Assembly: GCA_025463135.1 (NCBI GenBank)
Contig: JAOAPY010000048.1
Span: 62,001 to 126,000, forward strand
Direction: 5' to 3'
Origin: Acidobacteriota bacterium
Lineage (GTDB): Bacteria; Acidobacteriota; Blastocatellia; Pyrinomonadales; Pyrinomonadaceae
DNA length: 64,000 nucleotides
In this document: positions 12,966-48,636 of the stretch, piece by piece
Layout of the letters: every line of letters begins with the position of its first letter
Position numbering within the stretch: position 1 is the first letter of the stretch
Position numbers and translations under genes: made by a program
The notes under the pieces: model-generated
Told to the model about the DNA's origin: nothing
The model's database searches: none
What the model saw: the letters and a program-made list of their open reading frames with translations, nothing else

Positions 12966-13104
12966 AGTGTCTCCTCTCCGGTGTGCGTTGGCTCCAAAGG
13001 TTTGAGGTGCGACAGGCATCCCCTGCAAACAGTGCGCGGCTGGTCAACGCGACCATTTAGAGAACAAGCAAGCAAAGCGGCGCGGTTGCTGGTTTGATTG
13101 CTTG

Positions 13105-16705: not shown

Positions 16706-18928
16706 ATGAAACTCTACAGCTACCGGAAACTAATCGTCGTCTTGATTGCACTCAGCCTCTGTGCCGCTTCGCCGGCACAAACCGCCGGCAAAAAACGTCA
16801 ACAGTCGCCCCGGGTTCGTTATCCGAACGTGAAGCTGGGACGTGGTCTCAAGACGCGCGGCGGCGGCACCGAAAAGCTCTCGGCGGAGTTACGGATCCTG
16901 AACGATCAGTTCGCCACAACCAGAGGCAGTGCGGAACCGGATCCGTTGGCCTTCTCTAACCAGGAACTACAAAGTGTTTTTGCCATCGCACCCAATGATC
17001 CCAATCCCCTGGTCGCCGTCGCCATTAAGTCTGCGCCTGCACTGACCGCAAAGGAACTGCGCGGGAACGGCGCAAAAATATACCTGCACCAGGGCGATAC
17101 ATTCTATGCAGACATTCCAGTGTCGTCGCTGGATACTCTCGCCCGAACGAAGTCGATTCTTACGATCGGCGCCGTTAAAGCGGCGAGCGTGCCGCCATCT
17201 CCCAGCGAGAGCGCGCCACCTGCCAGGCGGCCGGTTACCTTAAGACAAAGAGGAATTATGTCCATCGTCACTCCTCCGCCTGCGAAAGAAAGCGCTAACG
17301 CGGCGAAGTCAGAGCTGACGGGCAAAGGAGTGATCGTTGGTGTAGTCGATACAGGCATCGATTGGCGGCACCCGGACTTTATTCGGCCCGATGGATCTTC
17401 GCGGATCCTTTACCTCTGGGACATGTACGACAATTCCTATCAGACCTCCGGCGGCAAAATCGGCAACCCGGGTCCAACACTCGAAGCGGGTGGTGACGTA
17501 CTACCGGGCACGGTTTATACCAATGCGCAGATCGATGCCGCTTTGGGAGGAACGGGCACCGTCAACTCCATGGACTACTTCGGACACGGAACGGCGGTGG
17601 CCGGTACAGCTGCCGGCAATGGACGCGCGACAGCAAATGGTCTGCCGGCCGGCACCTATACGGGTGTCGCTCCGGAAGCCGACCTGATTATTGTCAAGGC
17701 TTCGAACTGTGGAGGCTTTGCCTCGATAGCTCACCTGGGCACTTTCTGGATTGCACAGGCCGCGAAAAATCTGGGACGTCCGGTGGTTATCAATCATAGC
17801 TACGGAGGTCACTATTCCGCGCACGATGGTCAGGAAGAACAAGAGCAATTTTTTAATAGCATAGTGGGCCCGGGAAAACCGGGCGTGGCGGCGACCGTAT
17901 CGGCGGGCAATGAGGGTCGATATAGCCTGCATGCCGGCGGCCGTTTTGGGCCGCGCCGCGCAGGCCAGGCGGATGTCGGCGGGACCTCGATCAAATTGTC
18001 AGTGACGGCTAATCAGGCGATCCCGGAGGTCAAGTTGATCGGGACCTTCAGCACCGACGATGAATGGGGATTGGGTATTGTGGGCTCGGGAAAATTCATG
18101 GCGGATGAGAACGGCAAATCGCAGGTCGTTTACGTGTACAAAATTGATGGCGTCGTCAAGGTCGGGTTTGAGGAGGGGGCCACCGAACCGAAAGACCTCC
18201 CGGCCTTTGCACAGGCTGTGCTCAACGCATCTGTTATTTCAACCAGGGCGGGCGGGCACGACCAGGTCGTCGTTCCACTACCCCCGGATAATTATTGGGT
18301 TTGGGGCCTGGGAATAACTGAGAAGGTCCGGAACGGCAGGTTTGATCTCTACCTGCCTTATTTTAACTATTCCAACTTTACGTACGGTGCGGACAAGGAC
18401 TTGATGGTGGGATCGCCCGGCAATGCCTCAAACGTAATCACCGTCGCTGCCTATGATTTCCAGGACCAGTGGACCAATCAGAATGGCTCGCAAACCGCAT
18501 ACAACCTGGCCCTGTCCAGCATCTCCGACTATTCGAGTCCTGGTGGTCGCCGTCCCGATGGAGTCTTTAAGCCGGACATCGCCGCGCCTGCAACCTACAC
18601 TATCTCTTCCCTGTCGAAAGGCGCAGTGGCTACTCCTCTTATTTGCAGCGATGGCAATCTGGCGAGCGGTCTGGGCGAAAAGTCAGTTACGCGCGACAGC
18701 TATCACATAGCCTGGTCGGGGACCAGCGCGGCCTCGCCATTCGCGGCCGGCGTCATCGCCTTGATGCTGCAAAAAAATCCGACTCTCGACTCCAAGCAGA
18801 TTAGGGACATCCTGGTGCAGACCGCAATCAAAGGCGACAAGTACGTCGGCGCGGTTCCCAATCCCGCCTGGGGCTACGGCAAGATCAATCCCGCCGCGGC
18901 GATTGCCAAGACGCCGCTGCCGAAGTAA
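16706..18928 (+). CDS. secreted subtilisin-like serine protease (S8)
   Basis: The 740-residue protein has a signal peptide (about residues 1-25) and a long propeptide-like region (26-200). The S8 catalytic domain follows, with Asp215 in VVDTGIDWRHPD, His294 in FGHGTAVAG and Ser674 in SGTSAASP, so the triad is complete. The ~380 residues between His and Ser include a large insertion, as in S8 enzymes with an inserted beta domain. It ends soon after the Ser helix without a sorting tail. The ribosome-binding site is weak. It sits at the divergence point between the two arms of the caspase island and is the only non-clan-CD protease in it. Cleavage of its neighbours' zymogens is a reasonable inference, not shown. 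Confidence 0.92.
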   Translation: MKLYSYRKLIVVLIALSLCAASPAQTAGKKRQQSPRVRYPNVKLGRGLKTRGGGTEKLSAELRILNDQFATTRGSAEPDPLAFSNQELQSVFAIAPNDPNPLVAVAIKSAPALTAKELRGNGAKIYLHQGDTFYADIPVSSLDTLARTKSILTIGAVKAASVPPSPSESAPPARRPVTLRQRGIMSIVTPPPAKESANAAKSELTGKGVIVGVVDTGIDWRHPDFIRPDGSSRILYLWDMYDNSYQTSGGKIGNPGPTLEAGGDVLPGTVYTNAQIDAALGGTGTVNSMDYFGHGTAVAGTAAGNGRATANGLPAGTYTGVAPEADLIIVKASNCGGFASIAHLGTFWIAQAAKNLGRPVVINHSYGGHYSAHDGQEEQEQFFNSIVGPGKPGVAATVSAGNEGRYSLHAGGRFGPRRAGQADVGGTSIKLSVTANQAIPEVKLIGTFSTDDEWGLGIVGSGKFMADENGKSQVVYVYKIDGVVKVGFEEGATEPKDLPAFAQAVLNASVISTRAGGHDQVVVPLPPDNYWVWGLGITEKVRNGRFDLYLPYFNYSNFTYGADKDLMVGSPGNASNVITVAAYDFQDQWTNQNGSQTAYNLALSSISDYSSPGGRRPDGVFKPDIAAPATYTISSLSKGAVATPLICSDGNLASGLGEKSVTRDSYHIAWSGTSAASPFAAGVIALMLQKNPTLDSKQIRDILVQTAIKGDKYVGAVPNPAWGYGKINPAAAIAKTPLPK

Positions 18929-19078: not shown

Positions 19079-20032
19079 ATGGCCAGCCGGTTCAGATCAT
19101 GGGGAACGTCCACGCTGGTGCTTGTCATCCTGGTCGTCCTCTGTCTCGGCGTAACCACACCGGGTCGAGCCACTCACGGTCCGCGAAATCATCCCAGCAA
19201 ATATTATCAAGACCCGGATCCCAAAAGAGGGGCTCGGGTCGTGGGCGCAACCAACCCGCAGAAAGCCGGGGCGCCGTTCACTCGCAATGGCAAGGATTAC
19301 GCCCTCCTCGTCGCCACGGATGACTACGATAATTGGTCTCATCTGAATAATCCCCGCGATGATGCGCGCGCCGTCGCTTATGAATTGAAAAATTATTATG
19401 GCTTTGAAACTGAGGTCATTGAGAACCCAACGAAGGAAGCGATACTTACAACCCTGTTGCGGTACAAACGTGAAAGAAAATATTCAAATGAAGATCAGCT
19501 GTTCATTTTCTTTGCGGGTCATGGGACCTTCATTGATGAGTTCAAGGAAGGCTATATCATCGCCAAAGATTCAAAAGCGAACGATGAACTGGGAGAAACC
19601 TATATCGCCCACTCGCAGTTACGCCGTCTAATTGACTTCATACCATGCCGTCACATTTTTGTTGTCCTCGACGTCTGTTTTAGCGGCACGATTGACGAAT
19701 TCATCGCGCGGAGAAGAGGTCCCGATGAGTACGGGGATACTTCAAACTACGAGTTCATCGAGCGCAAACTGCAATTCCAAACACGACAGTTTCTTACTTC
19801 GGGGGGCAAAGAGTATGTCCCCGATGGCCGACCCGGCCAACACTCACCATTCGTAAGAAAGATCCTCGAAGCCCTGCGCAGCTACGGCGGCCAGTACGGC
19901 GTGTTGACGATAGGTGGAGTTACTTCTTACGTGGAACGAGTAACACCTGAGCCGCGGCGAGGTGAGTGGGGCACTAACGAGCCCGGCAGTGATTTTGTTT
20001 TCGTTGCCCGGTCGAAGGACAAGTCACCGTAA
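19079..20032 (+). CDS. secreted minimal caspase-like protease (C14, subfamily IV)
   Basis: The 317-residue protein has a signal peptide or anchor (residues 8-30), a short linker rich in Pro, Asp and Lys, and one C14 domain starting about residue 72 (KDYALLVATDDYD). The dyad is intact: His148 in FAGHGTF and Cys200 in LDVCFSGT. It has no WD40, TPR or DUF4384 part, so it is the simplest clan CD protein here. It is strongly similar to the second caspase domain of 10113-12965 and to the remnant 13105-13373 (shared GRPGQHSPF and VERVTPEPR words). It lies 150 bp after the subtilase gene and 89 bp before a WD40-C14 gene, all on the plus strand. Confidence 0.9.
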   Translation: MASRFRSWGTSTLVLVILVVLCLGVTTPGRATHGPRNHPSKYYQDPDPKRGARVVGATNPQKAGAPFTRNGKDYALLVATDDYDNWSHLNNPRDDARAVAYELKNYYGFETEVIENPTKEAILTTLLRYKRERKYSNEDQLFIFFAGHGTFIDEFKEGYIIAKDSKANDELGETYIAHSQLRRLIDFIPCRHIFVVLDVCFSGTIDEFIARRRGPDEYGDTSNYEFIERKLQFQTRQFLTSGGKEYVPDGRPGQHSPFVRKILEALRSYGGQYGVLTIGGVTSYVERVTPEPRRGEWGTNEPGSDFVFVARSKDKSP

Positions 20033-20121: not shown

Positions 20122-23100
20122 ATGCTTCAACGCCGCCTTGCATGGTTCCTGTTTGTGATCGTCTTCGGATGGCCGAGCGCTCAGGCTCAGCGACCGCAAT
20201 TGGTCATTCAGACGGGCCATACGGATGAAGTGCGAGCAGTGGCCTTTAGCCCGAACAGCAGATTGTTGGCGAGTGGCAGCGCCGATAACACTATCAAACT
20301 CTGGGATACGACCGCCGCCATCGAGGTGGGCACGCTCCGCGGTCATCAGGGAGAAGTGTATTCAGTGGCCTTCAGCCCGGATGGCAAGTCCCTCGCCTCC
20401 GCTGGAGCAGATCGCACGATCAGAGTATGGGACCTCATTTCAGGCAACGAGTTGCGCCGCTTAACGGGTCACTCCGGGGCAATTGTTTCGATCGCCTTTA
20501 GTCCGGACGGGAAGAGGCTTGCGAGTGCCGGCCTGGATCGAACCATCGGTATCTGGGACGTTGTCACCGGGCAGCAAATCATGACGTTGAGCGGACACAC
20601 CAGCGAGGTGATCTCCATTGCGTTTAGTCCCGATGGGCGAACCCTTGCGAGTGGCAGCAATGATCACCTGGTCAAATTATGGGATGTCTCAACGGGCAAA
20701 GAGGTAGGAACGCTTAGAGGACATTCCGCTGAGGTCTATTCAGTCGCCTTTAGTCCCGATGGAAAAACACTGGCAAGTGGGAGCGCTGACCGGACGATCG
20801 CCCTGTGGGATATGCGCAACTTTACGCGCCTGGCCATATTGCAGGGTCACACGGGGCTCGTAAAGTCGATTGCCTTCAGTCCTGACGGTAAGACGCTGAT
20901 GAGTGGCGCTACCGATTCAACCATCCGGTCGTGGGATCTAAAAAACTACAAAGTAGCTTTGAAGCTGGCCGGCGCCTCGGACATCGCGGCCATCGCCATT
21001 AGCCCTGATGGCACAACTGTGGCCAGCGCGAATAGAGATCAAACGATAGTCTTGCGTGAGCTTTCCGGTGGCAACGTACGGATCCTCCGAGGGCATTCAG
21101 TGGTAGTAAACTCGATTGCCTTCAGCGGCAACGGGAGGCTGTTGGCAATTGGTAATCGCGATGCAACAATCAAGATTCTGAACCTCGCCGCCGGCGCGGA
21201 GCTTCGTACGCTGGAAGAAAAGTTTGGCACTGTTCTCTCAATCGCGTTCAGTCCCGATGGCAACATCCTTGCCACTGGCAGTAGCGATCAGACCATTAAG
21301 CTGTGGGATGTCAACGCCGGTGAGCCAAGAATGACACTGGTTGGGCACTCAGCTCTTGTGAGGTCGATTGCCTTTAGTCCTGACGGCAAAGTACTGGCTA
21401 GCGGTAGCGCGGATCGTACGGTGAAACTTTGGGACGTCAGTTCCGGTCAGGAGTTGCGCAACATTAGTGGACACTTAGCCGCAGTCAACTCCGTAGCCTT
21501 CAGTCCTGACGGCAAAGTCCTGGCGTCCGGGAGTTCGGACCATACGATCAAGATTTGGAGCCTTGCGACGGGTGCAGAATTGATCACCCTTAAGGGACAT
21601 TCACACGCAGTTACGTCAGTAGCATTTAGTATCGATGGAAAACTCTTAGCGACAGGATCCGATGATGCGACAATAAAGCTCTGGGATTTTGGAAGTGGTC
21701 AACTTTTGTCCTCACTCGCAGGGCACGCCGATAGTGTCTCTGCCCTGGCGTTCAGTCCCGATGGTCGACTACTGGCAAGTGGCAGTCACGATCACACCGT
21801 CAAACTTTGGGATGTACCTACACGCCAGGAATCAGCGACGCTCACGAGATACGGTGCCATCAATTCAGTGGCGTTTAGCCGGGACGGTCATATTCTGGCC
21901 AGCGGCGGTGCCGACGCGGTCACCAGGCTTTGGGACGTGGCGCGCCGCGAGGAAATCGCCACTGTTTTGCCGAGTGGCCCGGGAAACTGGCTGATCGCTA
22001 CCCCGGACGGTCTTTTCGATGGCTCGCCCGCCGCGTGGAGCCAGATTCATTGGAGCTTCGGACTAAACGTCCTCGACGTCGCTCCGGTTGAAACATTCTT
22101 TAATGAGTTCTTTTATCCCGGCCTGCTTGCGGATATTTTTGCCGGCAAGCAGCCCCGGGCTGTGAAGGAGATCTCACAGAAAGATCGCCGCGCCCCTCGC
22201 TTGCAATTGACCGCCGAGCCGCCCACCGATCCTAACTCGCGTTTCGTTCTAATAAATATACATGTCAGCGAAGCTCCGCCCGATACGACGCATAGCAAGG
22301 GAAGCGGCGCGCGGGATTTGCGCCTGTTTCGCAACGGCTCGCGCATAAAATTTTGGGCCGGTGACTTACTAAAAGGACAGGCAACAGTCTCGCTAAAGGC
22401 TTTGGTGCCGATAGGTCCGGGTGAAAATCGATTTTCTGCTTATGCTTTCAATCCTGACAACATTAAGAGCAGCGATGTTTCGTTGACAATTATGGCGCCG
22501 GAGAACATCAGGCGCGCAGGCACTCTATCTGTGCTGGCAATCGGCATCTCAAAATACGAAAACCCTCAATACAATCTATCTTATGCCGCCGGCGATGCCG
22601 AGGCTCTTGCGAGGGAACTGGAGCGCCAGCAGCAAAAGCTGCGACTCTACAGTTCCGTAAAGGTAGTACCTTTATTAAATGCCGAGGCCACCAAAGCAAA
22701 CATCCTGCTCGCACTGAACAGATTCGCCGGCGAAGAATCAGCGTTACCAGCCGGCGTTCCGTCATCGCTGAGGCAGATCAAACCCGTGTTGCTCGAGGAC
22801 GCTGTGATTGTCATTTTTGTGGGTCATGGCACCGCCCAGAAGGACCACTTTTACTTCCTTCCGCACGACCTCGGATTCAGTGGGCCACGCTTGAGATTAA
22901 GCCAGGACGGCTTGGAATCAATTCTGGCCCACAGCATTTCAGAAACGGAACTGGAGTCTGCATTTGAAAAAGTCAATGCGGGTCATCTCTTATTCGTCCT
23001 GGATGCACCCTCCGGAGGACAAGCGCTTGAATCTGATGAGACCCGAATAGGACCAATGAATTCGAAGGGTCTGGCCCAACTGGCATATGAAAAAGGGATG

Positions 23101-23442
23101 TACATTCTGGCCGCTTCACAGCGGACCCAGGGCACAACCGAGTCAGCGCAGCTGGGTCACGGTTTATTGACCTTTGCACTGTTGGAAGGACTGGCAACGG
23201 ACAAAGCAGATTTGGATCGAGACAGGCAAGTGACCGCCTTTGAGTGGTTGAATTATGCAGTGCAGCGTGTTCCCGAATTGCAACTGGAGCCCTTAAGAGA
23301 ATCGCGGCATCATGCCGCCGCGTCTCATTTTTCTGTCAATACATCACCAGAGATAGATTTGGAGAGAAGTCACATACAGCGGCCGCGAATCTTCTATCGA
23401 CGAGAGTTGGAACCTCAACCGCTGATCGTGGCTCGGTATTAG
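20122..23442 (+). CDS. secreted WD40 pseudo-caspase (C14, subfamily II, catalytic Cys lost)
   Basis: The 1,106-residue protein starts at an ATG preceded by AAGGA and has a signal peptide (residues 1-23). Fourteen regular WD40 blades can be counted (about 30-620), enough for two seven-bladed propellers. The linker motif WLIATPDGLFD and a beta spacer lead to a C14 domain from about residue 798. The His is kept (about 902, FVGHGTA), but the catalytic Cys position reads LDAPSGGQAL, so Cys has become Pro (about 963). The paralogue 30746-34639 has IDACQSGQAL at this place. Everything around it, including the GPMNSKGLAQLAY block and the RPRIFYRRELE tail, is well kept, so this is not a decaying gene. 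It is probably a pseudo-protease scaffold or decoy. Confidence 0.9.
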   Translation: MLQRRLAWFLFVIVFGWPSAQAQRPQLVIQTGHTDEVRAVAFSPNSRLLASGSADNTIKLWDTTAAIEVGTLRGHQGEVYSVAFSPDGKSLASAGADRTIRVWDLISGNELRRLTGHSGAIVSIAFSPDGKRLASAGLDRTIGIWDVVTGQQIMTLSGHTSEVISIAFSPDGRTLASGSNDHLVKLWDVSTGKEVGTLRGHSAEVYSVAFSPDGKTLASGSADRTIALWDMRNFTRLAILQGHTGLVKSIAFSPDGKTLMSGATDSTIRSWDLKNYKVALKLAGASDIAAIAISPDGTTVASANRDQTIVLRELSGGNVRILRGHSVVVNSIAFSGNGRLLAIGNRDATIKILNLAAGAELRTLEEKFGTVLSIAFSPDGNILATGSSDQTIKLWDVNAGEPRMTLVGHSALVRSIAFSPDGKVLASGSADRTVKLWDVSSGQELRNISGHLAAVNSVAFSPDGKVLASGSSDHTIKIWSLATGAELITLKGHSHAVTSVAFSIDGKLLATGSDDATIKLWDFGSGQLLSSLAGHADSVSALAFSPDGRLLASGSHDHTVKLWDVPTRQESATLTRYGAINSVAFSRDGHILASGGADAVTRLWDVARREEIATVLPSGPGNWLIATPDGLFDGSPAAWSQIHWSFGLNVLDVAPVETFFNEFFYPGLLADIFAGKQPRAVKEISQKDRRAPRLQLTAEPPTDPNSRFVLINIHVSEAPPDTTHSKGSGARDLRLFRNGSRIKFWAGDLLKGQATVSLKALVPIGPGENRFSAYAFNPDNIKSSDVSLTIMAPENIRRAGTLSVLAIGISKYENPQYNLSYAAGDAEALARELERQQQKLRLYSSVKVVPLLNAEATKANILLALNRFAGEESALPAGVPSSLRQIKPVLLEDAVIVIFVGHGTAQKDHFYFLPHDLGFSGPRLRLSQDGLESILAHSISETELESAFEKVNAGHLLFVLDAPSGGQALESDETRIGPMNSKGLAQLAYEKGMYILAASQRTQGTTESAQLGHGLLTFALLEGLATDKADLDRDRQVTAFEWLNYAVQRVPELQLEPLRESRHHAAASHFSVNTSPEIDLERSHIQRPRIFYRRELEPQPLIVARY

Positions 23443-23493: not shown

Positions 23494-24459
23494 TTAAGGA
23501 ACCTGTGTTCCCGCGGGTAGACGATCCGTCAACTCGCGCGCGCGAGGATAATTACCAACCACGCGTTGGGCGACGATGGTCCTTATTAAGAGTTCCCGAC
23601 TTTCGGGCGCCTGGGCCAATGCGGCTTCGTACTCCGCCGCGGCCTGGGGGAACATTCCATAACGCGTGAAGACTTCGGCGCGGCCCAAACGTCGCGTCAG
23701 GCTGCCTGCTTCCCTTTGCCAGCGAGCAAGTTCACGTCTTAAAAGTTTCTCGTCTGCGATGGCGAGTACAGAGAAACCCAACTTCGTTTCATTGCCGCAG
23801 CTGTCAGTGAGGATCAAAGTCAACGATCCTCCGTCTGACTTGCTACGACTTTTCCGCAGCGCTTGCCGAGCAGCGTCCGTGACCAGGAAACCAAGGCGTC
23901 CTTTGAGGTGTACTACTCGCCAAATCGGATCAGCATTTGTATCCTGAATCACGAAAGAAGTTTCGCACTCTTTTGTGAACGGTACCCAACTGATGCTGAA
24001 TGTATCCGGGCTGATCGTGCTGCCGTCAGACGGCGAAAACACTATGACCGCGGGAACCTTGCCGCCCCGGTCGCGGCCACCGCGTCGTCCATATTCCTCC
24101 AGGACTTTTTGTAAGGGATCGGTTTGACCGAAGCCGGCGCGCGGAATCGTAAACCAGCTTGATGGTCCATTGATGTCTCGCAGTCTGCCTGCGACACGCA
24201 AACGCAGGAACCCACCTGGCTCGCAACGTACCTGCTCGCCGGGATATAAGCGGCGCGCGACATCCGTATTCGGATCCAGTTTGATTGGCTTCGCGCCGGC
24301 ATCATGTCTTATGAAAGCGCCGCCGCTGACTTTCTCGACCAGGGCGGTACTTCCCGACTGTCCAGCCGCACTTCCCAGTCCAGCCAGTACCAACAGGATC
24401 ATGCCGGGCACGATGCAGATTTTTTCAAGGTTCAGCAGAGACCAAAAACTTTTCGTCAC
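23494..24459 (-). CDS. secreted FecR-like protein with C-terminal helical region
   Basis: The protein has about 321 residues. I choose the GTG at 24459 because AAGGAG lies five bases upstream; the GTG two codons earlier would overlap that site. A hydrophobic export signal covers about residues 17-35. Residues about 40-100 look like a FecR-type beta domain (LYPGEQVRCEPGGFLRLRV, then GRLRDINGPSSWF). A second beta region follows, and the C-terminal 80 residues are helical and TPR-like (YGMFPQAAAEYEAALAQAP). FecR domains elsewhere receive periplasmic signals, but there is no sigma factor here. It lies downstream of the CHASE2 gene on the same strand, convergent with the pseudo-caspase gene. Confidence 0.7.
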   Translation of the reverse strand: MTKSFWSLLNLEKICIVPGMILLVLAGLGSAAGQSGSTALVEKVSGGAFIRHDAGAKPIKLDPNTDVARRLYPGEQVRCEPGGFLRLRVAGRLRDINGPSSWFTIPRAGFGQTDPLQKVLEEYGRRGGRDRGGKVPAVIVFSPSDGSTISPDTFSISWVPFTKECETSFVIQDTNADPIWRVVHLKGRLGFLVTDAARQALRKSRSKSDGGSLTLILTDSCGNETKLGFSVLAIADEKLLRRELARWQREAGSLTRRLGRAEVFTRYGMFPQAAAEYEAALAQAPESRELLIRTIVAQRVVGNYPRARELTDRLPAGTQVP

Positions 24460-24491
24460 TGTCACTCCTTATGACGTGTGGGATGACGCGT

Positions 24492-24508
24492 GGGTAGTGC
24501 TCCGTTAG
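24492..24508. repeat. fragment of the MITE-like element end
   Basis: GGGTAGTGCTCCGTTAG matches the terminal sequence of the palindromic element at 16071-16319. No second arm is seen nearby, so it is a solitary end or a decayed copy. It lies in the 245-bp gap between the FecR-like and CHASE2 genes. Confidence 0.5.
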
Positions 24509-24704
24509 TTCGTTCCCGAGAGGTCGCATTGTCGCCAAAGTCTCAAGAAAAGATCGCCATACAACAGTCGCAAACGTTTCGCTCCGTAGGAGCCGGATGT
24601 TTATCGGGTCCATCGTCTATAAACATTTCGTCCCCACGGGACTGAGAACGTTTTACAGCAAGCGTTTTGTTGCCACGGACAAAGTGCAGCACACCGACAG
24701 ATCA

Positions 24705-26189
24705 CTACCGACGCATGAAGCGATGCCTCGACGAAAGTGGCAGATGCTCCTTGATCCACTCCCCCGCCCCTGCGACATGCTGCTCAATCGAGGGATGAAA
24801 GATAAGCATCGCAAAAGCCAGAAAAAAGTCGTCCCACATCACGCGCGTAGTGCGAACAAACAGAACGCCGCATACTATGCCCGCTACAACAACAAGCAAA
24901 GTAAGCACACCCTCCAAACGATGAACATTTATCCGCACGCGTTGCTTGTGCCGCTGACTTAAGCGAATCAAAACAATGGTCAGCAGGATCGCTCCTGAGA
25001 GGACCAGATCGATCACTGTACGTCCCCGCGCAGTCACCTCGTAAAGGGGCTCTTTTATCAACGTATCGGCCGCGGCGGCGTGCAGAAATACTCCCGGATA
25101 TGGTTGGTCGCGCGCGGGAACCACAAAGGTATCCGTGGCTTTACTCAAAGTAGCATCGCCCAACAAGACGATCTTTCCCTGAAAGCGCCCACGCTGGTTC
25201 GGATCACGCAGCACCGCGGCATCGATGGTAGGAAGTGTTTCGATTGATTCCAGCGAGCCAAAGTCAATCAGGAAGTCCTCGAGAGAGAGACCCGGCGCCA
25301 GACGCTTCTCCGAAAACTTTTCAATTATTCCCGACGTGTTGAGACCGCTAATAATAAAGCCGCGAAATCTTGAGAGCCTGGTAGTCGCTTGATTCGAATC
25401 ACTCCCGTAGGCCTCGGCCAGGACGAGACTCATAGACTTGCTCGGTCTTGATTCTGTATTCGGGGCCGCGGGTTTGGTTTCATCTCCCACGCGAACAAGG
25501 CGCAGCATGCGACGGCTATCCTTGGGGACCAGAATGCTGCCGGCCAGGTCCTGGTATTTTTCGTTGCCCAACCACTCGGACGGCGCTTTGGCGATCGTTC
25601 GCTTCACCCCCAGGACGACGGGAATTCCGTTTTGTTCGCGCAGGTTGAGACAGAACTGAAAGAAATCCGGATCGCGCGGATAGACATAGCCATTTTCGTC
25701 GGGCGCAAAATCGATGTCGATCCCAATGGCCCTGGGCTTCTGTTCGGCCAGGGCAGAGATCATTTCCTGCAGAGCGATTCGCGGCGTCGCGATTCCGGTG
25801 AGGCCATCGATGTCATACTCTTCGGGAGCAAGATCAGAAATATCAACAATGGTGACCGGCGTCGAACGAGAAGTCAGCTGCAACTGCAAAAGGTTGTAGC
25901 TCATTAACTCTAGTTGTTTGCCGAAAGTTGTGTGCTCGATGCCGAACTTAATCACGAATACCAGCGCGATGAACAACAGACCTTTAACGAAATCGAGCGC
26001 TGCTTGCCTGCCTCCATAACGCTCTTCTGCCGTCTTACTAGGCGAGGATGCGGCAGCTGATTGAGGTACTGATTCGTGGCCGGCCGGCACCGATTGTTTC
26101 GGCGCAGATTTATCCGTCTCACCGACTGCCTGCTCTGGCGCGGATTTACGCTTTGTGGGTTTCTTCTTTGGCGAACGATGCCGACTCAT
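24705..26189 (-). CDS. CHASE2-domain membrane protein without an output domain
   Basis: The 494-residue protein has an N-terminal Lys/Ser/Pro-rich cytoplasmic tail (about 1-60) and one transmembrane helix (about 64-86). A large extracytoplasmic CHASE2 sensor domain follows (about 90-385, with VTIVDISD, AIGIDIDFAP and a KIVLLGD segment near its end). Three more transmembrane helices (about 395-480) and a short basic C-terminus complete it. CHASE2 usually sits in front of a kinase, cyclase or GGDEF module, and here none follows. AAGGAG lies 11 bases before the ATG. With the FecR-like gene downstream it forms a two-gene minus-strand unit inside the plus-strand caspase row. A link to the adjacent proteases is inference. 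Confidence 0.85.
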   Translation of the reverse strand: MSRHRSPKKKPTKRKSAPEQAVGETDKSAPKQSVPAGHESVPQSAAASSPSKTAEERYGGRQAALDFVKGLLFIALVFVIKFGIEHTTFGKQLELMSYNLLQLQLTSRSTPVTIVDISDLAPEEYDIDGLTGIATPRIALQEMISALAEQKPRAIGIDIDFAPDENGYVYPRDPDFFQFCLNLREQNGIPVVLGVKRTIAKAPSEWLGNEKYQDLAGSILVPKDSRRMLRLVRVGDETKPAAPNTESRPSKSMSLVLAEAYGSDSNQATTRLSRFRGFIISGLNTSGIIEKFSEKRLAPGLSLEDFLIDFGSLESIETLPTIDAAVLRDPNQRGRFQGKIVLLGDATLSKATDTFVVPARDQPYPGVFLHAAAADTLIKEPLYEVTARGRTVIDLVLSGAILLTIVLIRLSQRHKQRVRINVHRLEGVLTLLVVVAGIVCGVLFVRTTRVMWDDFFLAFAMLIFHPSIEQHVAGAGEWIKEHLPLSSRHRFMRR

Positions 26190-26794: not shown

Positions 26795-26979
26795 GGTGAA
26801 GTGATTTACATTTCGCGCCCTGGGCGCTGAAGGTTGAAGTATCCACACTGCCTCTCTTCATGCCGACAACGGCAGCATCTTGATGACGACGGACCTGTTT
26901 TTACGCGTTCGAACCAGCGGTATCCTGGTTTCGTGCTGACCTCAAACCATTCGCCTCTGCCGTGGTGTCAGGAGTTCAA

Positions 26980-29900
26980 ATGATCAAAGCAGACAGACCA
27001 TCGGCCTTCATTCGTTGGCTTTGTGCCGGCATTTTCCTACTCTCACCCGCTGCTTTTCAGGCCCAGAAACCAGAGTTAGTAGTCGAGACCGGACATTCCA
27101 GCTGGGTCAGCTCCGTGATGTTTAGTCCCGACGGAAAAACTCTGGTCAGTGGTGGCCAGGATGACCGCGTTGTTCTGTGGGACGTGGCGACAGGCAAAGA
27201 ACTTCGCGCGTTCTCACATAACCAAATTGTGGAATCGGTCTGTTTCAGTCCCGATGGAAAAACCGTGGCCAGCGGCAGCGCCGACAACACGATCAAGCTG
27301 TGGAATTTTTCCGATGGTACGCTGCGTCGCAGTTTGTCGGCCAATGTCAGGGTATTGTCAGTCACATTTAGCCCTGATGGAGCAACGCTGGCCAGCTCAG
27401 GCGCCGATCACTTGATCCAGTTATGGGACGTAGACAACGGCACCTTGCGAACCAGGCTTTCCGGTCACTCAGGTTGGGTCGGAGCGGTGGGGTTCAGTCG
27501 CGACGGGCACACTCTGGCCAGCGGCAGCGATGACGGCACCATAAGACTCTGGGACCTGAAGCATCTCGAGAATCCAGCGAAAGTGATCCCGCTTCCCTCC
27601 AAAGCTCACGTTAAAACAGTTGCTTTCAGCCCGGACGGATTAACGCTGGCCAGCGGCAGCGACGACGGGGCCGTCAATCTTTGGGACGTTGCATCGCGCA
27701 CTGTCAAACTTTCGTTATCAGGCCAGCCGCCAATGGCTTTCGCTCCGGATGGGAAGTCGATAGCGGCAACAGTCAGTGAGAAGACGATCAAGGTTTGGGA
27801 TTCCTCCAACGGCGCGTTGCTTGCCACCCTTCCGGGAAATTCAGACGCGCTCCTCTCACTAGCATTCAGCCCTGATGGCCAGACCATTTCGAGTGGCGGC
27901 AAAGACAAAACGATAAGGCTGTGGGATGTTGGCAGACAAGTAGAAAGGCTGGCACTAATACCACACGCGCGCCGGGTTCATTCAATCGCCCTTAGCAGCG
28001 ATGGTCAGACACTCGTCAGCGGAGGCAGCGATGCCACCATCAAGGTCTGGGATTTATCCAGTAGCGGCGGGCTTCGTTCGTTCAAGGGCCACTCAAACTA
28101 CGTTTTGTCAGTGGCCCTGAGTGCTGACGGAAAAACAGTGGCCAGCGGCAGCGACGACAATACCATCAGGTTATGGGACGCGCAGACAGGAGCGGTACGC
28201 CAATCACTTCCCGGTCGTCCTCCCGTGGCGTTCAGTCCCGACGGCAAAGTCCTGGCATACTTGCGCCTTGATGGAATGATCAGACTGATTGATGCCGCCA
28301 GCCTTAACGAACTCAACCTGCTGGATGCTACCCCTGGGCCAGTGCGGGACCTGGTCTTCAGCTCCGATGGCGCCAATCTCGCCAGTGCCGGCGATACCGT
28401 GCCAATAAAACTTTGGGACCTCTCTACTGGCAAGGTCCGATACTCACTGTCAGGAAATTCTCCGATTTCCTTTAGCCGTGACAGCAAGATACTGGCTAGC
28501 GCCACCGCCGGATCCGATATCAAGTTGTGGGATGTGCCGAGCGGTACAGAATTGTTCACGCTGAAGGACAATGCCAGTCGAGTCACCGCGCTTGCTTTTG
28601 CTGCCGATGGCAAGTTGCTGGCCGGTGGCAGTGAGGACGCAACCATAAAGCTCTGGGACGTCACCGCGCGATCAGTGCGGCAAACGTTGACCGGTCATCA
28701 ACGCACGATCAGTTCACTGGTGTTTGGGCCGGAAGATCGAACTCTCGTCAGCGCCAGTTGGGACTCAAGCATCAAGCTCTGGCAGACGGCCGGTGGACAT
28801 GAAACTGCAACCCTCAGTGCCCTCGACGACAAAGACTGGGCGGTGGTTGATAGCGAGGGACGGTTTGATGCCTCCGCGGGTGGAATGGAGATAATGCATT
28901 GGGTCGTGCGGAATGAACCGATAGATCTTAGTCAGTTAAAAGCGCGCTACTATGAACCACATCTATTGACCAAGCTCACTGGTTTCAATAAGGAGCCGCG
29001 GCGCGACATCAGCAACTTCCAGGACGTCAAGCTCTTTCCCGCGGTCGAGTATGACGAACTCGCTCCCAACAGGAAGAAGCTTTCGCTAACTCTCATTAAT
29101 CGGGACGGCGGCATCGGCAAGGTCCAGATCTTCGTCAACGGCAGAGAAGTTGTCGCCGACGCTCGCGGTGCCAATCCCGATCCGAATCTGAGGAAAGAGA
29201 AACGCGAGATCGACCTCGATCAGTTCAAGCGTTTCATGGTGCCCGGCGAAGAAAACGTAATCGAGGTCGTCACCCACAACGCCGAGGGTTATCTCGCCAG
29301 TCGAGGTGCAAAGTTGGTCTTCTCACCGCCGGCGGAAGCGAAGGTCGAACCAAGTCTATTTGCCCTCGTAGTCGGTGTTTCAACTTATCGCAAGGGTGGC
29401 AATCTGCATGATCTTACCTTCGCTGCTAAAGACGCCGGAGCGATGGCCGTCGCTCTGGAGACGGCCGGCAATCGGCTCTTTCCCGCGCGCACGACCATTA
29501 CCCAACTCTCTACTGCCGGCGATAAGCCTGAGCGTCAGCCAAGCAAACAGAACATTATCGCTGCACTCAAAGAGTTTGCCGGCAAGGCCAAGTCGACTGA
29601 TATTCTTTTGTTGTACTTTGCCGGACACGGAGTCAGCTTTGGTGGACAGGACGGCGACTTCTACTTTCTAACCAGTGACGCTTCGACCGCGGATCTTAAA
29701 GACATTGAACTGCGTGACAGCACCGCATTCTCCAGCCAGGAACTGGCCAAATTAATACTCAGCATTCCCGCCAATAAACAGGTGATGATTTTGGATACCT
29801 GCGCGTCAGGTCGTTTGATCGAAGAGCTAACTAAATCACGCAGCGTCGATTCCAGCACTATCCGGGCCTGGGACCGCATGAAGGACCGTACGGGTTTATG

Positions 29901-30573
29901 GATCCTGGCGGGCAGCGCCGCCGACGCCGTGAGTTATGAATCCAGCCGCTACGGCGAAGGCGTCCTCACCTACAGCTTGCTCAAGGGGATGAAAGTGGAT
30001 TTCGACAAGGCGATGCGAAAAGCTGAAGGCGACAGCGCGCCGGAGTATGTTGATGTCAGCGCGCTCTTTAATTATTCGGCGGACGTAGTCCCGCTGTTGG
30101 CCCAGGGCATCGGCGGCATCCAAAAGCCCCTGATTGCTTCCAAACGCGACGCCCGCAGTTTTGATATCGGGCGCATCAACGCCACCGACCGCGCTATCAT
30201 TCCTTACACTATTGAGAAGCCCGTCTTCCTGCGTGCGGACTTTCAGCTCGAAGGTCGTCCGCGCGATACACTGGACCTCGGTGGCAAAGTTGACGCGCAG
30301 CTGCGCGAGAAATCAGCGCGCGGTCTGGACGCGCCGCTGGTCTTCTGGGACTTGCCGCAACATCCGGGCGCTTACCGCATTGCCGGACGATACGTGGTAA
30401 ACGGCACACACGTTTCCGTCAAAGTCTTTGTCTCCACTTTCCTCCAGTCGGGAGTGAACGTCGAAGAAAAAGATGTGGGCCAACCATTCACCATCGAAGG
30501 CGACATCGCCGACGTTAATGCACTGGTCACCCGTATTCTCGAGCAGACCGATAAACTGGTAGCCGTGAAGTAA
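26980..30573 (+). CDS. secreted WD40 caspase-like protease (C14, subfamily III)
   Basis: The protein has 1,197 residues from the ATG at 26980, which has AGGAG six bases upstream; the GTG 18 bases earlier is less likely. A signal peptide (about 1-29) is followed by about 13-14 WD40 blades (35-630), the linker motif WAVVDSEGRFD and a beta spacer. The C14 domain runs from about 792 (SLFALVVGVSTY) with His883 in FAGHGVSFGG and Cys941 in LDTCASG, both intact. A further domain of about 110 residues after the caspase (about 1080-1190) is shared with 34835-38983. Its pattern, with a V.G..V.V strand pair and a D...LV..I end, resembles TolB-N/FlgO-type domains. It begins the second half of the plus-strand row. 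Confidence 0.9.
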   Translation: MIKADRPSAFIRWLCAGIFLLSPAAFQAQKPELVVETGHSSWVSSVMFSPDGKTLVSGGQDDRVVLWDVATGKELRAFSHNQIVESVCFSPDGKTVASGSADNTIKLWNFSDGTLRRSLSANVRVLSVTFSPDGATLASSGADHLIQLWDVDNGTLRTRLSGHSGWVGAVGFSRDGHTLASGSDDGTIRLWDLKHLENPAKVIPLPSKAHVKTVAFSPDGLTLASGSDDGAVNLWDVASRTVKLSLSGQPPMAFAPDGKSIAATVSEKTIKVWDSSNGALLATLPGNSDALLSLAFSPDGQTISSGGKDKTIRLWDVGRQVERLALIPHARRVHSIALSSDGQTLVSGGSDATIKVWDLSSSGGLRSFKGHSNYVLSVALSADGKTVASGSDDNTIRLWDAQTGAVRQSLPGRPPVAFSPDGKVLAYLRLDGMIRLIDAASLNELNLLDATPGPVRDLVFSSDGANLASAGDTVPIKLWDLSTGKVRYSLSGNSPISFSRDSKILASATAGSDIKLWDVPSGTELFTLKDNASRVTALAFAADGKLLAGGSEDATIKLWDVTARSVRQTLTGHQRTISSLVFGPEDRTLVSASWDSSIKLWQTAGGHETATLSALDDKDWAVVDSEGRFDASAGGMEIMHWVVRNEPIDLSQLKARYYEPHLLTKLTGFNKEPRRDISNFQDVKLFPAVEYDELAPNRKKLSLTLINRDGGIGKVQIFVNGREVVADARGANPDPNLRKEKREIDLDQFKRFMVPGEENVIEVVTHNAEGYLASRGAKLVFSPPAEAKVEPSLFALVVGVSTYRKGGNLHDLTFAAKDAGAMAVALETAGNRLFPARTTITQLSTAGDKPERQPSKQNIIAALKEFAGKAKSTDILLLYFAGHGVSFGGQDGDFYFLTSDASTADLKDIELRDSTAFSSQELAKLILSIPANKQVMILDTCASGRLIEELTKSRSVDSSTIRAWDRMKDRTGLWILAGSAADAVSYESSRYGEGVLTYSLLKGMKVDFDKAMRKAEGDSAPEYVDVSALFNYSADVVPLLAQGIGGIQKPLIASKRDARSFDIGRINATDRAIIPYTIEKPVFLRADFQLEGRPRDTLDLGGKVDAQLREKSARGLDAPLVFWDLPQHPGAYRIAGRYVVNGTHVSVKVFVSTFLQSGVNVEEKDVGQPFTIEGDIADVNALVTRILEQTDKLVAVK

Positions 30574-30745
30574 TGAGATTGAGTTAGGGCGACTGGCCTT
30601 CGCAGCTGATACATGTTGGTCGCCTGAAAAAACTGGCGCGCCAGGCCGCACCTCTACCATCCCCGGCACGCTGAAATGCATCCTTTAATTGGCGCGTCAA
30701 TCATCAACCATGTACATGGGCCCGGGAGTTCTCAGCAACGATAGA

Positions 30746-33700
30746 ATGATGAGGCAGTTCCTTCAGTTCCTGACTTGTGTTTGCCTGGTCATGATTGTCC
30801 AGGTCGAAGTTCGGTCGCAAAAGGCCGAACTCATTGTTCAGGAGGGGCACACGGAAAAGGGCCTGACCGGTAAATTTGCCCTCGCCGGAAAACTAATTGT
30901 TACAGCGGGACAGGACCACGCGCTAAAGCTCTGGAGCACCGAAACCGGCACCTTGTTAAAGACCTTTACCGGACTCAATCCAGCCGGCGTCGATACAGAA
31001 TATTCTGTGCGAATTAGTCCAGATGGGAAGCGTGCCGCTGCGGTTGATTTTAGTAACAGGATCAGAATATTGAATCTTGAAACAGGCAGCGAGTTACAAC
31101 CTCTGGCAGCGACCCTCGAGGCAGAGAGGGGACCAAAAGCCTCCTTAGCTCCCAACGCCGGAGCGATTCATGATTTGATCTTCAGCTCCGACGGGCAGCA
31201 TGTCTACGCCCTCGTCAGTGTCTTGAGCAAGGGTCAGGCTTCTTATGCAATTCACGGATGGGATTTAGATAGCGGAAAGAGCGTTGGGCATGCGCTTGAA
31301 AGCGGAGATGTTGAACCCACCTTCTTCAGCCCTGATGCAAATCTACTCCTTGGTTATAGTATTTGTTCCGGCGAATCAAAACTTACCGTAATCAATACAT
31401 GGGATACAGCTAGCGGGCGAACGGCCTTCAGGCGATCCTATCCCGGTTGTTCGGATGTCAAAATCAACCCGGACGGGAAGCTGCTGGTGCTGCATGGCCA
31501 TGAAAAGATAACGCTGTTGAATGCCCGGACAGGACAAGCACTTTCGACTATTGATGTCATTGGCAAATTGGGAGATGTAGCTATCAGCCATGACGGCAAA
31601 CTCCTGAGCGGCAAGGTTGAAATCGGTCAGGGTAAAACGTCTCTCACTCAGCTTGTTATCTGGGAAGTTGCATCTGGCGGCATCACTCGGCAATTGTCCC
31701 TGGGCACCGGTTACCTCAACGACATCTCGTTCGTCTGGAGCCCTGACAATTCCATGATTGCCTGCAAGATGCAGACCGACGGCATGTCTTCCAGCGGAGT
31801 AGTACAGGTGTGGAATGTTCCGAGTGGTAATAGGGTCCGGGAATTTCAGCTCTCGAAAGACGAACTCGGACGGTTCCTGGGTCCTCCCCTGGACTGGTCG
31901 CCCGATGGAAAATATCTGGTCACGTTTGGAGATGATGGGGCAACTTATCTGTGGGACCCGGAAACCGGCAAGAAGGTCCACACTCTCGCCGGGCAAAGCC
32001 GGTCAACCGACCTCGTGGCATATAGTCCCGACGGAAATTATTTTGTTAGCGAGAAAGAATCCCGTCGTCAAAGCGAAGACTTGCGAGCCGGCCTTTCAAT
32101 CTGGGATTTGAAAGGCGGCGCGCTGTTATCCAGGATCAAGGGACAATTCAAGACGTTCAGCCGCGACAGCAAATTCGTCGTGACTGAAACTAAAGTGCAG
32201 GACCGAGGATTTACCGCAACCAGCATGTACGCCGATGTTCAGGCTAAGGAAGACGAAACGAATCTCTGGACCCTCAACGGCGGCACCGCAGTCGCAACCT
32301 TGCCCGGCCGATTTCTTTTTCTGAGCGCGGATAACCAGAGGATGATCACACGCTCCAGAGACAAAGGTGTCATTCTCTGGGACACGGAAAAGAAAGTTCC
32401 GATCAATACGCTGACTACGTTTCACGACGATACAAGCTTTGCCGTCGTCAGCGAGGATGGCGCTTATCTGGCCAGCGGCTGGAATAACGGACAAACGATC
32501 AACTTGATAGATGTTTCGTCCGGTCGCACTCTAAGGAGCCTGACCGGCTTTCCCACCCAAGAGGACGACCCGACAGAATACGATACTCCCGGTTATTCCG
32601 CGGTTTTTAGCCATGACAACAAATTGCTTGCTTGCCGTCGCGGCTGGCTCGAAAACGGCGAGACCTTGCTTATCTGGGATGTGACGACCGGGGCCTTACT
32701 CAATAAGTTCAAAGCAGGACGCGGACTGTCACCGAGCCTCACATTCAGCCCTGACAATCGCACGCTGGTCAGCATGGCGGACGACGTTACATTCTTTGAT
32801 GTGCAAACCGGCAAAGAGCGGAAGAATCTTCTGAACGTCGCCGACTCGTTCTACGAAGTGATGAAGACGGTCGATATGAACACTAAATCGTTCTATAGCC
32901 CGGACGGCTCCTTCTTTGTTACGGTGACAATCGGCGATGACCTGGATGTGCAAGTCTTTGACCTCCGAAACAATCGAGGTCTTCCTTATCTAAGCGACCG
33001 CAGCTTCCGCGCCGCGGCCTTTAGTCCCGATAACAAGACTATGGCTCTGGTTGGACAGGACAATTCCATCCAGTTTTGGGACCTGCATGCCGGGCGATTG
33101 CTTATTACCGCGCTGGATCTGGACCAGGACGGTTGGCTAACCATAGCTCCTGATGGCAGATTCGACGGAACCGCCGGTGCATGGCAAAAAATCTTCTGGC
33201 GGTTCACTGCAAACATCATGGACATCCTGCCGGTGGAAGTTTTTTTCGGAGACTTCTATTACCCGAGTTTGCTGTCCGATATTTTGAGCGGCAGAAGCAC
33301 CTCGTTCACGCAAAACCTCTCGGCGAAGGATCGGCGGCAGCCGCAGCTGAAATTAACTCTGGCTGATGCTCAAACTGATACGACGCTGAATGCGCGTACT
33401 GTGACTGCTAAGATTTATGTCACACAAGCTCCTGCCGGAGCGCAGGACGTGCGGCTGTTTCGCAACGGCTCACTGGTGCGGGTCTGGCGCGGCGATGTCC
33501 TGGGGGGACAAAGTCAGGTCACGCTTGAAGCGACGGTTCAGATTGTAGCGGGAGAAAACAGACTCACCGCCTACGCTTTTAACCACGACAACATCAAGAG
33601 CGCGGATGCGTCGATCATCATCAATGGTGCTGACGGCTTGAAGCACGCGGGCACACTCTATGTTCTGGGCATTGGCAGCAATAAGTACCAGAACCCAGCC

Positions 33701-34639
33701 TATGATCTTCAGTTTGCTTTGGCTGATGTCGATGAAATCAGCCGCCAGGTCAAAACCTGCCAGGACGGGCTTCGCAACTATGCTCGCACTGAAATCATTT
33801 CCCTCACCGATCAGGAAGCCACAAAAGCGAACATCATGCTGGCGCTGCGAGGTTTTGCCGATCGCTCGCCAATGAAATTGCCGCCCGGCATTTCATGGGC
33901 CCTGAAACAACAACTGGAGAAGATCAAAGACATCGAACCTGAAGACGGCCTGGTCATCTACTATGCAGGCCACGGCACAGCCATCGGTGAACACTTTTAT
34001 TTGCTGCCGCACGATTTCATCGCCAAAAACGAAGCACTACTAGAGGCCAGCAGTATCTCCGATCTTGAATTGGATGAAGCGCTGGCGCGAGTGGACGCAA
34101 GTAAGCTGTTAATGATTATTGACGCGTGCCAGAGTGGTCAGGCTCTGGGCGGAGAGAAAGAAGGGCGCGGGCCAATGAACTCAAAGGGTCTGGCGCAACT
34201 GGCTTACGACAAAGGCATGTACATCCTGACGGCGGCGCAGAGTTATCAAGCTGCCAGAGAAGTATCGCGCACGCAAACCGGGAAACAGATCCAGCACGGG
34301 CTTTTGACTTTCGCTTTACTGGAAGGACTGACAAAGGCAAAGAAGGACAACGATGGCAAAATTAGCGAGCGCGAATGGATGAACTACGCCGTCGAGCAAG
34401 TGCCGCTGATGCAAATTGAAGAAATGAAAAAGCGCAGCGTGGTGATCGAGCAGGGCGGCCGTCCAAAGTCACCCTCAGCAGCTTCACGGAAAGGCGCACC
34501 GGGCCAACGCGGCGCCCAGTTGGTATTTATTGACGGCGATAACGCCAGGGCAGATCCCGAAAAGCGCAACGTACAACGCCCTCGCGTCTTCTACCGCCGC
34601 GAACTCGAGGCGCAGCCACTGATTGTCGCCAGGCCCTGA
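30746..34639 (+). CDS. secreted WD40 caspase-like protease (C14, subfamily II)
   Basis: The protein has 1,297 residues from the ATG at 30746, chosen because a signal peptide (MMRQFLQFL, then CLVMIV) begins there; a TTG 57 bases upstream opens the longer frame. The WD40 region (about 25-780) is longer and less regular than in its paralogue 20122-23442. The linker motif is WLTIAPDGRFD. The C14 domain starts near 968 with His1076 in YAGHGTAIG and Cys1128 in IDACQSGQALG, so this member is catalytically intact. The tail RPRVFYRRELEAQPLIVAR matches the paralogue almost exactly. No good ribosome-binding site is seen. The gene is 173 bp after the subfamily III gene, so one operon with it is plausible. 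Confidence 0.9.
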   Translation: MMRQFLQFLTCVCLVMIVQVEVRSQKAELIVQEGHTEKGLTGKFALAGKLIVTAGQDHALKLWSTETGTLLKTFTGLNPAGVDTEYSVRISPDGKRAAAVDFSNRIRILNLETGSELQPLAATLEAERGPKASLAPNAGAIHDLIFSSDGQHVYALVSVLSKGQASYAIHGWDLDSGKSVGHALESGDVEPTFFSPDANLLLGYSICSGESKLTVINTWDTASGRTAFRRSYPGCSDVKINPDGKLLVLHGHEKITLLNARTGQALSTIDVIGKLGDVAISHDGKLLSGKVEIGQGKTSLTQLVIWEVASGGITRQLSLGTGYLNDISFVWSPDNSMIACKMQTDGMSSSGVVQVWNVPSGNRVREFQLSKDELGRFLGPPLDWSPDGKYLVTFGDDGATYLWDPETGKKVHTLAGQSRSTDLVAYSPDGNYFVSEKESRRQSEDLRAGLSIWDLKGGALLSRIKGQFKTFSRDSKFVVTETKVQDRGFTATSMYADVQAKEDETNLWTLNGGTAVATLPGRFLFLSADNQRMITRSRDKGVILWDTEKKVPINTLTTFHDDTSFAVVSEDGAYLASGWNNGQTINLIDVSSGRTLRSLTGFPTQEDDPTEYDTPGYSAVFSHDNKLLACRRGWLENGETLLIWDVTTGALLNKFKAGRGLSPSLTFSPDNRTLVSMADDVTFFDVQTGKERKNLLNVADSFYEVMKTVDMNTKSFYSPDGSFFVTVTIGDDLDVQVFDLRNNRGLPYLSDRSFRAAAFSPDNKTMALVGQDNSIQFWDLHAGRLLITALDLDQDGWLTIAPDGRFDGTAGAWQKIFWRFTANIMDILPVEVFFGDFYYPSLLSDILSGRSTSFTQNLSAKDRRQPQLKLTLADAQTDTTLNARTVTAKIYVTQAPAGAQDVRLFRNGSLVRVWRGDVLGGQSQVTLEATVQIVAGENRLTAYAFNHDNIKSADASIIINGADGLKHAGTLYVLGIGSNKYQNPAYDLQFALADVDEISRQVKTCQDGLRNYARTEIISLTDQEATKANIMLALRGFADRSPMKLPPGISWALKQQLEKIKDIEPEDGLVIYYAGHGTAIGEHFYLLPHDFIAKNEALLEASSISDLELDEALARVDASKLLMIIDACQSGQALGGEKEGRGPMNSKGLAQLAYDKGMYILTAAQSYQAAREVSRTQTGKQIQHGLLTFALLEGLTKAKKDNDGKISEREWMNYAVEQVPLMQIEEMKKRSVVIEQGGRPKSPSAASRKGAPGQRGAQLVFIDGDNARADPEKRNVQRPRVFYRRELEAQPLIVARP

Positions 34640-48466: not shown

Positions 48467-48636
48467 CGAAGACCTCCTTTGGGATTTGCTGAAGCCGGCG
48501 CTTCACCCATCCAAAGAACGTGCGAAAGCTGCAAACTTGCTTTTCCTTCGCCGTCGAAATTCAGCTGCTTCCCGCCAAGTCAGAATCGCAGCAAAAGTCT
48601 TGGCACCAATGGAGGATTCGAGTAACCTGTGCCACC

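Follow-up and report, generated by a model that had tools for sequence, protein, structure and literature searches.

A stretch of 64,000 nt from the genome of an Acidobacteriota bacterium of the family Pyrinomonadaceae (assembly GCA_025463135.1, contig JAOAPY010000048.1, positions 62,001–126,000; the whole stretch is called the window hereafter, and the source genome G000) contains, on its (-) strand, a gene for a CHASE2 membrane protein without an output domain followed by the gene for an exported partner, both of them within a row of caspase-type (C14) genes. We found that output-less CHASE2 proteins of this kind group separately from those that carry a kinase or cyclase as output, and that they are enriched in the vicinity of genes for clan CD proteins (C14 and CHAT). 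Together with the predicted export of the C14 proteins, this leads us to favor, tentatively, the view that the pair forms a receptor complex, or scaffold, anchored in the membrane and facing the periplasm, from which a signal would reach clan CD proteins through direct contact. The genomes, contigs and loci compared are cited by our handles (G, C, and L numbers) where they must be told apart.

The CHASE2 gene (24,705–26,189, (-) strand) codes for a protein of 494 amino acids in which CHASE2 (PF05226; E value 6.7e-22, 78.7 bits against a curated cut-off of 26.3) spans residues 82–399; it is the sole significant Pfam family, with no significant kinase, cyclase or other output domain besides it. 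Hydropathy shows one hydrophobic segment ahead of the domain (residues 62–86) and more behind it (389–413 and 420–452), after which the protein ends. By comparison, of the 21 control CHASE2 proteins examined, 19 gave a match to cyclase, histidine kinase or Ser/Thr kinase queries, and the remaining two had 217–234 unassigned C-terminal residues. The polar, lysine-rich N-terminal tail of around 60 residues (26,010–26,189, (-) strand), which would be cytoplasmic judging from CHASE2 proteins generally, is the site where a relative from genome G023 bears EAD5, one of the effector-associated domains (EADs) that were reportedly defined in a 2020 paper by Kaur. Pfam revealed no EAD in either protein of the pair, and a search of G000 for EAD5, the only one sought genome-wide, gave no match. 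Likewise, neither protein matched any PADLOC family (anti-phage defense models) at E ≤ 0.001, and there was no second CHASE2 match in G000 at that same threshold; a weak CHASE2 profile match falls in a 50-residue frame on contig C21, near another C14 gene.

The partner gene (23,494–24,465, (-) strand) lies downstream of the CHASE2 gene, after a 239-bp gap (24,466–24,704); the corresponding open reading frames (ORFs) overlap in G023, in G217, and in a Caballeronia plasmid. Its product, of 323 amino acids, has a predicted signal peptide, a weakly FecR-like N-terminus and a TPR-like C-terminus (TPR matches below cut-off in Pfam, the best being TPR_19 with E 1.2e-4), and no family was above cut-off in Pfam or NCBIfam. 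FecR (PF04773) gave no match at E ≤ 0.1 in either collection, nor did DUF928 (PF06051) at E ≤ 0.1; a profile alignment to the FecR-type partners of other CHASE2 genes extended over 50 columns only (E 8e-4, probability 25%), and hhalign with two DUF928 proteins reached E 0.004 and a probability of 8%. A chain from the G023 partner through that of locus L051 to DUF928, each step of which has a pairwise E of 0.002 against a database of 15 sequences, is at most suggestive. The partners fall into groups: those from the window and G023 are homologous, those from G217 and a Rhizobium plasmid are alike (1e-6), and so are those from G479, G482, and G448, and hhalign did not join these last two groups to the window partner. 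An earlier, sequence-only reading of this DNA had described a CHASE2 protein lacking an output domain and ending after its last helices, which Pfam and hydropathy bear out, and placed the pair on the opposite strand within WD40-C14 genes, as indeed it is: antisense in the C14 row, with WD40 and caspase-type proteins on both flanks. Its description of the neighbor as a secreted FecR-like protein holds for secretion, through the predicted signal peptide, whereas the likeness to FecR is weak and no FecR model matched.

A survey of neighborhoods indicated that proximity to clan CD genes is more frequent among output-less CHASE2 loci than among other CHASE2 loci. The family search covered 396 genomes of the phylum and found CHASE2 in 121, the matches listed being mostly frames of 600–900 amino acids; the output-less set was drawn from among the matches listed and from a search with a profile, A4, of 162 genomes of the class, which contributed G479, G496, and G510:C539. 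A C14 or CHAT gene was present within 10 kb in 5/10 readable output-less loci (the window, G023, G217, G328, and G479) versus 2/28 other CHASE2 matches from 20 control genomes (CHAT in both cases, C14 in none; Fisher p = 0.008). The figures were 4/9 versus 2/28 without the window (p = 0.022), and 5/14 versus 2/28 when four loci cut by contig ends (G482, G471, G448, and G462) were taken as negatives (p = 0.031), while random placement would yield 0.47 of 10 loci (P 1.5e-5); all these statistics assume independent loci and uniform placement. The negatives among the ten include the TIR-CHASE2 fusion of G220 and the protein of G179, and three of the ten loci (G393, G220, and G510) are readable on one side only. 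G449, where CHASE2 is followed by a separate histidine kinase gene, was left out of the set, and loci cut by contig ends in G151, G161, G401, G371, G397, G289, G241, G409:C58, G271, and G143 were not counted. The control genomes were hand-picked from the family-search list with the length of their contigs in consideration, and the output domains of the controls were checked by query for 21 of the 28 and judged by frame length for the other seven, including the G303 protein.

Two loci illustrate how close this association can be. In G328, a genome with two CHAT matches, the only C14 match belongs to a gene that converges on the output-less CHASE2 gene and overlaps it by 4 bp. In G479, the exported partner, the CHASE2 gene and an exported CHAT gene (signal peptides by eye) are found in a row, with a 17-bp overlap between CHAT and CHASE2, and this CHAT match is one of only two in the genome. 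These cases bear on the possibility that an unrelated envelope module landed by chance in an island that accumulates exported genes. The density of clan CD genes in G000 alone gives a chance of about 10% for such a landing, half of the readable loci have no clan CD neighbors, and the presence of the CHASE2 protein is patchy, with a match in 1 of 59 other genomes. However, with the window removed, four of nine loci are still near clan CD genes against an expectation of 0.37 (random-placement P 1.2e-4), and some of the positive genomes, such as G328 and G479, are poor in these genes; we therefore consider a chance landing unlikely.

The pair also recurs outside of the window. A search of 59 other genomes with the window CHASE2 protein retrieved a single match, in G023, which belongs to another genus of the family and holds the closest relative found, and a peptide-pattern scan of the genome contigs, with poor patterns, returned this locus only. 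Identity in the alignments was 31% for CHASE2 and 26% for the partner, whose homolog was found with E 8.5e-10. The G023 operon consists, by Pfam, of genes for an EAD5-trypsin protein (E 3.5e-19 and 8.4e-19) and an EAD5-CHASE2 protein (EAD5 in residues 7–127, E 9e-8), at 9,574–12,466 of L034, and then of the gene for the partner homolog, and it is surrounded by CHAT, TPR, TPR-CHAT, and clostripain (C11) genes. EAD5 is scarce, with three matches across the 396 genomes of the phylum, two of them in this operon; the locus of G023, unlike the window, thus has an effector-associated domain on at least two of its proteins. EADs have been proposed to pair like with like, recruiting effectors (PMC8195603), and on this principle the G023 operon can be understood as coding for a receptor without an enzyme of its own, which would recruit a protease.

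Phyla other than Acidobacteriota were represented by two plasmid matches from Proteobacteria only. In the Caballeronia plasmid, a CHASE2 gene whose product is 30.6% identical to that of the window overlaps a 184-residue ORF with a signal-like start, possibly related to the window partner, and further on there are transposase-like ORFs (named by eye) and a gene with a partial CHAT match. In the Rhizobium plasmid, three ORFs follow each other in a row: a CHASE2 frame, one of 320 residues that begins with a signal-like segment, and one for a CHAT protein. When the plasmid collection was searched by tblastn, the CHASE2 proteins from L034, L037, L059, L054, and L087 retrieved no further record, those from L054 and L087 finding only themselves. 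The pair is more than a chance association, since it recurs in G023 and a CHASE2 gene with a short partner is found on the Caballeronia plasmid. The neighborhood survey that the sequence-only reading had called for, as a check on the frequency of CHASE2-only plus FecR-like genes beside C14 or CHAT genes, gave a divided answer: the enrichment over the controls, the CHAT genes near both plasmid relatives and the EAD5-protease operon of G023 speak for the association, and half of the loci lie away from clan CD genes.

A maximum-likelihood tree with 58 of 59 CHASE2 domains (one, of over 520 residues, was dropped) grouped 13 output-less proteins in one clan with support of 98/96, apart from the CHASE2 proteins with kinase or cyclase outputs. 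The clan includes the proteins from the window, G023, and Caballeronia, which group together with support of 100/100, and those from G217, Rhizobium, G179, G496, G393, G328, G510, G482, G479, and G471; because the root is at midpoint, it is a split and not a dated clade. With FastTree and a different alignment, 12 of the 13 stayed together, at a support of 0.96 whether the C-terminal helices were included or not, and after removal of five long-branch rows the figure was 11/11 (0.97, or 0.84 without the C-terminal helices). Long-branch attraction is a risk here, as four of the eight long-branch rows are output-less members of the clan, two of which were among those removed in the rerun. The protein from G179, whose gene lies between tRNA synthetase genes, was unstable in the tree. 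A C14 or CHAT gene is found within 10 kb for 7 of the 13 members, and the CHASE2 genes of G471 and G482 are followed by genes for TPR proteins cut by the contig end (by eye for G482). Proteins with an N-terminal effector fall outside of the clan (TIR in G220, CHAT in G510:C202, and Ser/Thr kinases in six loci). In these six (L047, L049, L050, L051, L052, and L053; shown by Pfam for three), the kinase goes ahead and CHASE2 is at the C-terminal end, an inverted order compared to the control CHASE2 enzymes.

An exported partner is, in itself, not unusual for CHASE2 genes. FecR (PF04773) was found within 5 kb of 11 of the 28 control matches, and FecR accompanies CHASE2 kinases in a Burkholderia operon (PMC5192318), so that the FecR half of the pair is not specific to proteases; CHASE2 genes commonly have an exported partner, be it FecR or another. 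This would suit an ordinary CHASE2/FecR envelope sensor acting in trans on a separate cytoplasmic enzyme, for which the basic N-terminal tail or the C-terminal helices would be the docking site, in which case the island would be a mere address; the kinases joined to CHASE2 in the six loci just mentioned, as well as a Ser/Thr kinase gene in the window (48,520–50,430), would also fit with it. Nevertheless, the pair had neither a kinase nor a cyclase as a neighbor, the nearest one among the scanned genes being 22 kb away, and the separate clan of the output-less proteins argues against a recent split of sensor and enzyme, as their enrichment beside clan CD genes argues against a mere address. An enzyme in trans is therefore an improbable explanation for the pair. 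Other exported partners were also seen: in G306 (L163, 8,179–10,932) and G127 (L165, 8,127–10,762), a DUF928 gene comes directly after a CHASE2-cyclase gene and faces a long exported ORF on the opposite strand, shown by Pfam to code for a TPR-CHAT protein in G306. In G510:C202 (L166, 653–6,063), a CHAT-CHASE2 fusion without signal peptide is followed by an exported TPR-PASTA protein, the N-terminus of which appears FecR-like by eye.

The predicted location of the proteases bears directly on how a signal could reach them. Using a crude caller, which also passes 24 of 267 reversed sequences, signal peptides were predicted for 18 of the 21 island ORFs of at least 150 amino acids (two of the 21 may be non-genes) versus 94 of 267 ORFs from control loci. 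All 12 C14 proteins of G000 passed the caller, as did 14 of the 19 CHAT proteins examined (the other two of the 21 CHAT matches are weak ones within C14 frames); export is thus predicted to be a trait of C14 and CHAT proteins across the whole genome, beyond the CHASE2 neighborhood. Elsewhere, inspection by eye indicated signal-like starts for the adjacent clan CD proteins of G217, G328, G479, and Rhizobium and for both CHAT proteins of G023, and none for the Caballeronia CHAT protein, the EAD5-trypsin protein or the clostripain. CHASE2 domains are described as extracellular sensors (PMC3501461) and, because all 12 C14 proteins are predicted to be exported, the sensor domain would be in the periplasm together with the partner and the proteases, and the signal need not cross the membrane. 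The premise of the sequence-only reading, which required a partner to relay the signal, thus becomes unnecessary. That the pair would be, conversely, a membrane-bound inhibitor, anchor or self-protection factor shielding the producing cell from the exported proteases is quite improbable, even if the pair lies inside the island together with a paralog with an intact Cys (DACQSG; 30,689–34,639), the TPR-like tail of the partner suits protein binding and the loss of the catalytic Cys in the convergent neighbor fits a regulatory subunit over an enzyme, because the literature presents CHASE2 as a domain of sensors or receptors (PMC8195603; PMC3501461) and most of the clan CD proteins do without such a factor, with 23 of the 33 C14 and CHAT matches of G000 lying outside the window and no other CHASE2 match in the genome at E ≤ 0.001.

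The receptor complex that we tentatively favor is supported by the enrichment of output-less loci beside clan CD genes, the arrangements in G328, G479, the plasmids and the G023 operon, the tree clan, the predicted export of C14 and CHAT proteins, and the existence of direct fusions, namely the CHAT-CHASE2 protein of G510 and the metacaspase-CHASE2 protein of Trichodesmium. A single helix at the N-terminus and a bundle of helices at the C-terminus would anchor the CHASE2 protein and leave its sensor domain in the periplasm, where the protein would pair with the exported partner in the manner proposed for CHASE2 kinases and cyclases with FecR proteins. The C-terminal enzyme would have been lost from this line of CHASE2 proteins, or was never there. 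In the window, a ligand-induced signal would pass by contact to the exported C14 and WD40-C14 proteins, which would lie on that side of the membrane too, and could either activate or restrain them; in G023, it would pass via the N-terminal EAD5 adaptor to the cytoplasmic EAD5-trypsin protease. With no such adaptor in the window protein, its putative link to the proteases rests on neighborhood and compartment, and it is from these that we infer that the pair senses for the protease set. A broader idea, which we regard as rather doubtful, is that of a bacterial family of enzyme-free transmembrane receptors akin to animal death receptors, with a sensor outside, a recruiting tail and proteases brought by contact, in which the EAD5 version would recruit a cytoplasmic protease by adaptor pairing and the bare version, as in the window, would meet partner and caspase-type proteins in the periplasm.

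Several observations weigh against the proposed receptor. No C14 or CHAT gene was found within 10 kb at G179, G393, G496, G220, or G510, and two control CHASE2-cyclases with full output domains (G306:C1 and G171:C12) are also near CHAT genes; the clan CD link therefore goes mainly, but not only, with the output-less kind. Profile A4 was built from six CHASE2 proteins picked with their neighbors already seen, and G179 and G393, which have no clan CD neighbors, were left out of it. The pair is antisense to the proteases and its two genes are separated by the 239-bp gap, so co-transcription is not indicated, and the island is a general accumulation of exported clan CD genes, where one more gene could have landed by chance. 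The CHAT match of Caballeronia is partial (profile positions 145–258 of 289, E 4.6e-7), in a protein without a signal peptide by eye, and the Rhizobium CHASE2 protein is a short frame (334 amino acids, profile positions 11–197 of 257) with a very long branch in the tree. To these we must add the permissiveness of the signal-peptide caller toward reversed sequences and the structure models of the CHASE2 protein and its partner, which, being derived from two-row alignments, had a predicted local distance difference test (pLDDT) value of about 40 each, too low for use.

Systems described previously share some of these features. The Burkholderia BiofilmReg operon, with a CHASE2 protein and a FecR partner (PMC5192318), shows the same layout of one helix before and three after CHASE2 and an adjoining gene for an exported partner, whereas the window protein lacks a kinase or cyclase domain, belongs to a separate tree clan, has a partner that is only weakly FecR-like, and is encoded beside clan CD genes. 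Metacaspase-CHASE2 fusions (PMC3501461, in Trichodesmium; PMC2853523) and EACC2-caspase-CHASE2 proteins (PMC8195603) also tie CHASE2 to a caspase-type peptidase, which is N-terminal in the fusions; in the window, however, receptor and peptidases have genes of their own and export is predicted for the peptidases, while a cytoplasmic metacaspase is predicted in PMC3501461. A Nostoc cluster includes two WD40 genes, a hypothetical gene, a CHASE2 gene and a DUF928 gene (PMC5587647), and so resembles the window in having WD40 genes by a CHASE2 gene and its partner, but its description includes no C14 gene and does not mention an output domain, and the window partner has no Pfam match to DUF928. In agreement with the "EAD principle" of conflict systems (PMC8195603), the G023 operon bears EAD5 both on CHASE2 and on trypsin; the window protein differs in having no EAD, and a CHASE2 receptor as carrier of an EAD was not met in that source, whose main text contains neither "EAD5" nor "FecR." Among open-access papers, judged by title and start of the abstract and with subscription papers outside the scope, we found none on an output-less CHASE2 family beside clan CD peptidases.

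The island that holds the pair (1,276–54,447, given without strand) is composed of C14, WD40, CHAT, and subtilase genes, the products of which are for the most part exported as judged from signal-peptide predictions, and contains 8 of the 12 C14 matches of the genome and 2 of its 21 CHAT matches. Convergent with the pair, and ending 51 bp from the stop of the partner gene, is the gene for an exported WD40 protein (20,122–23,442, (+) strand; WD40 by Pfam, predicted signal peptide) with a caspase-like C-terminal domain, in which Pro replaces the catalytic Cys. This protein aligns with its paralog from 30,689–34,639 with 44% identity over 540 columns, DAPSG in the former corresponding to DACQSG in the latter, and it retains the His motif; it may be a non-catalytic partner. 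Neither of the two matched PF00656 in the genome-wide C14 search, and we read them as caspase-like because of the match of the former to the caspase model NF047832, below its cut-off (E 2.2e-9), and the PADLOC caspase match of the paralog (3.6e-7). On the other side, an exported WD40-C14 protein (26,962–30,573, (+) strand; PF00656 match G000:C51:91359-91994, WD40, predicted signal peptide) is encoded divergently from the CHASE2 gene, with 772 bp between both starts. Further away are genes for an exported stand-alone C14 protein (19,079–20,032, (+) strand; PF00656, E 1.5e-16) and an exported subtilase (16,706–18,928, (+) strand; PF00082, E 3e-38), both with predicted signal peptides. The stand-alone C14 protein is close to part of a C14 protein of 971 amino acids (10,113–13,028; phmmer, 4e-130), perhaps due to a recent duplication. 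Additionally, positions 55,471–58,647 code for a protein with FHA domains, in three stretches, joined to an ABC transporter.

Roles in cell death or defense are generally assumed for the caspase-type proteases of bacteria and, to our knowledge, the signal that switches them on is mostly unknown. A clan of output-less receptors that recurs beside caspase-type proteases, with one member wired through an EAD adaptor, is a small and testable candidate for the missing upstream sensor. Moreover, the predicted export of the C14 proteins of G000, a point absent from the sequence-only reading, implies that the circuit may run wholly outside the cytoplasm.

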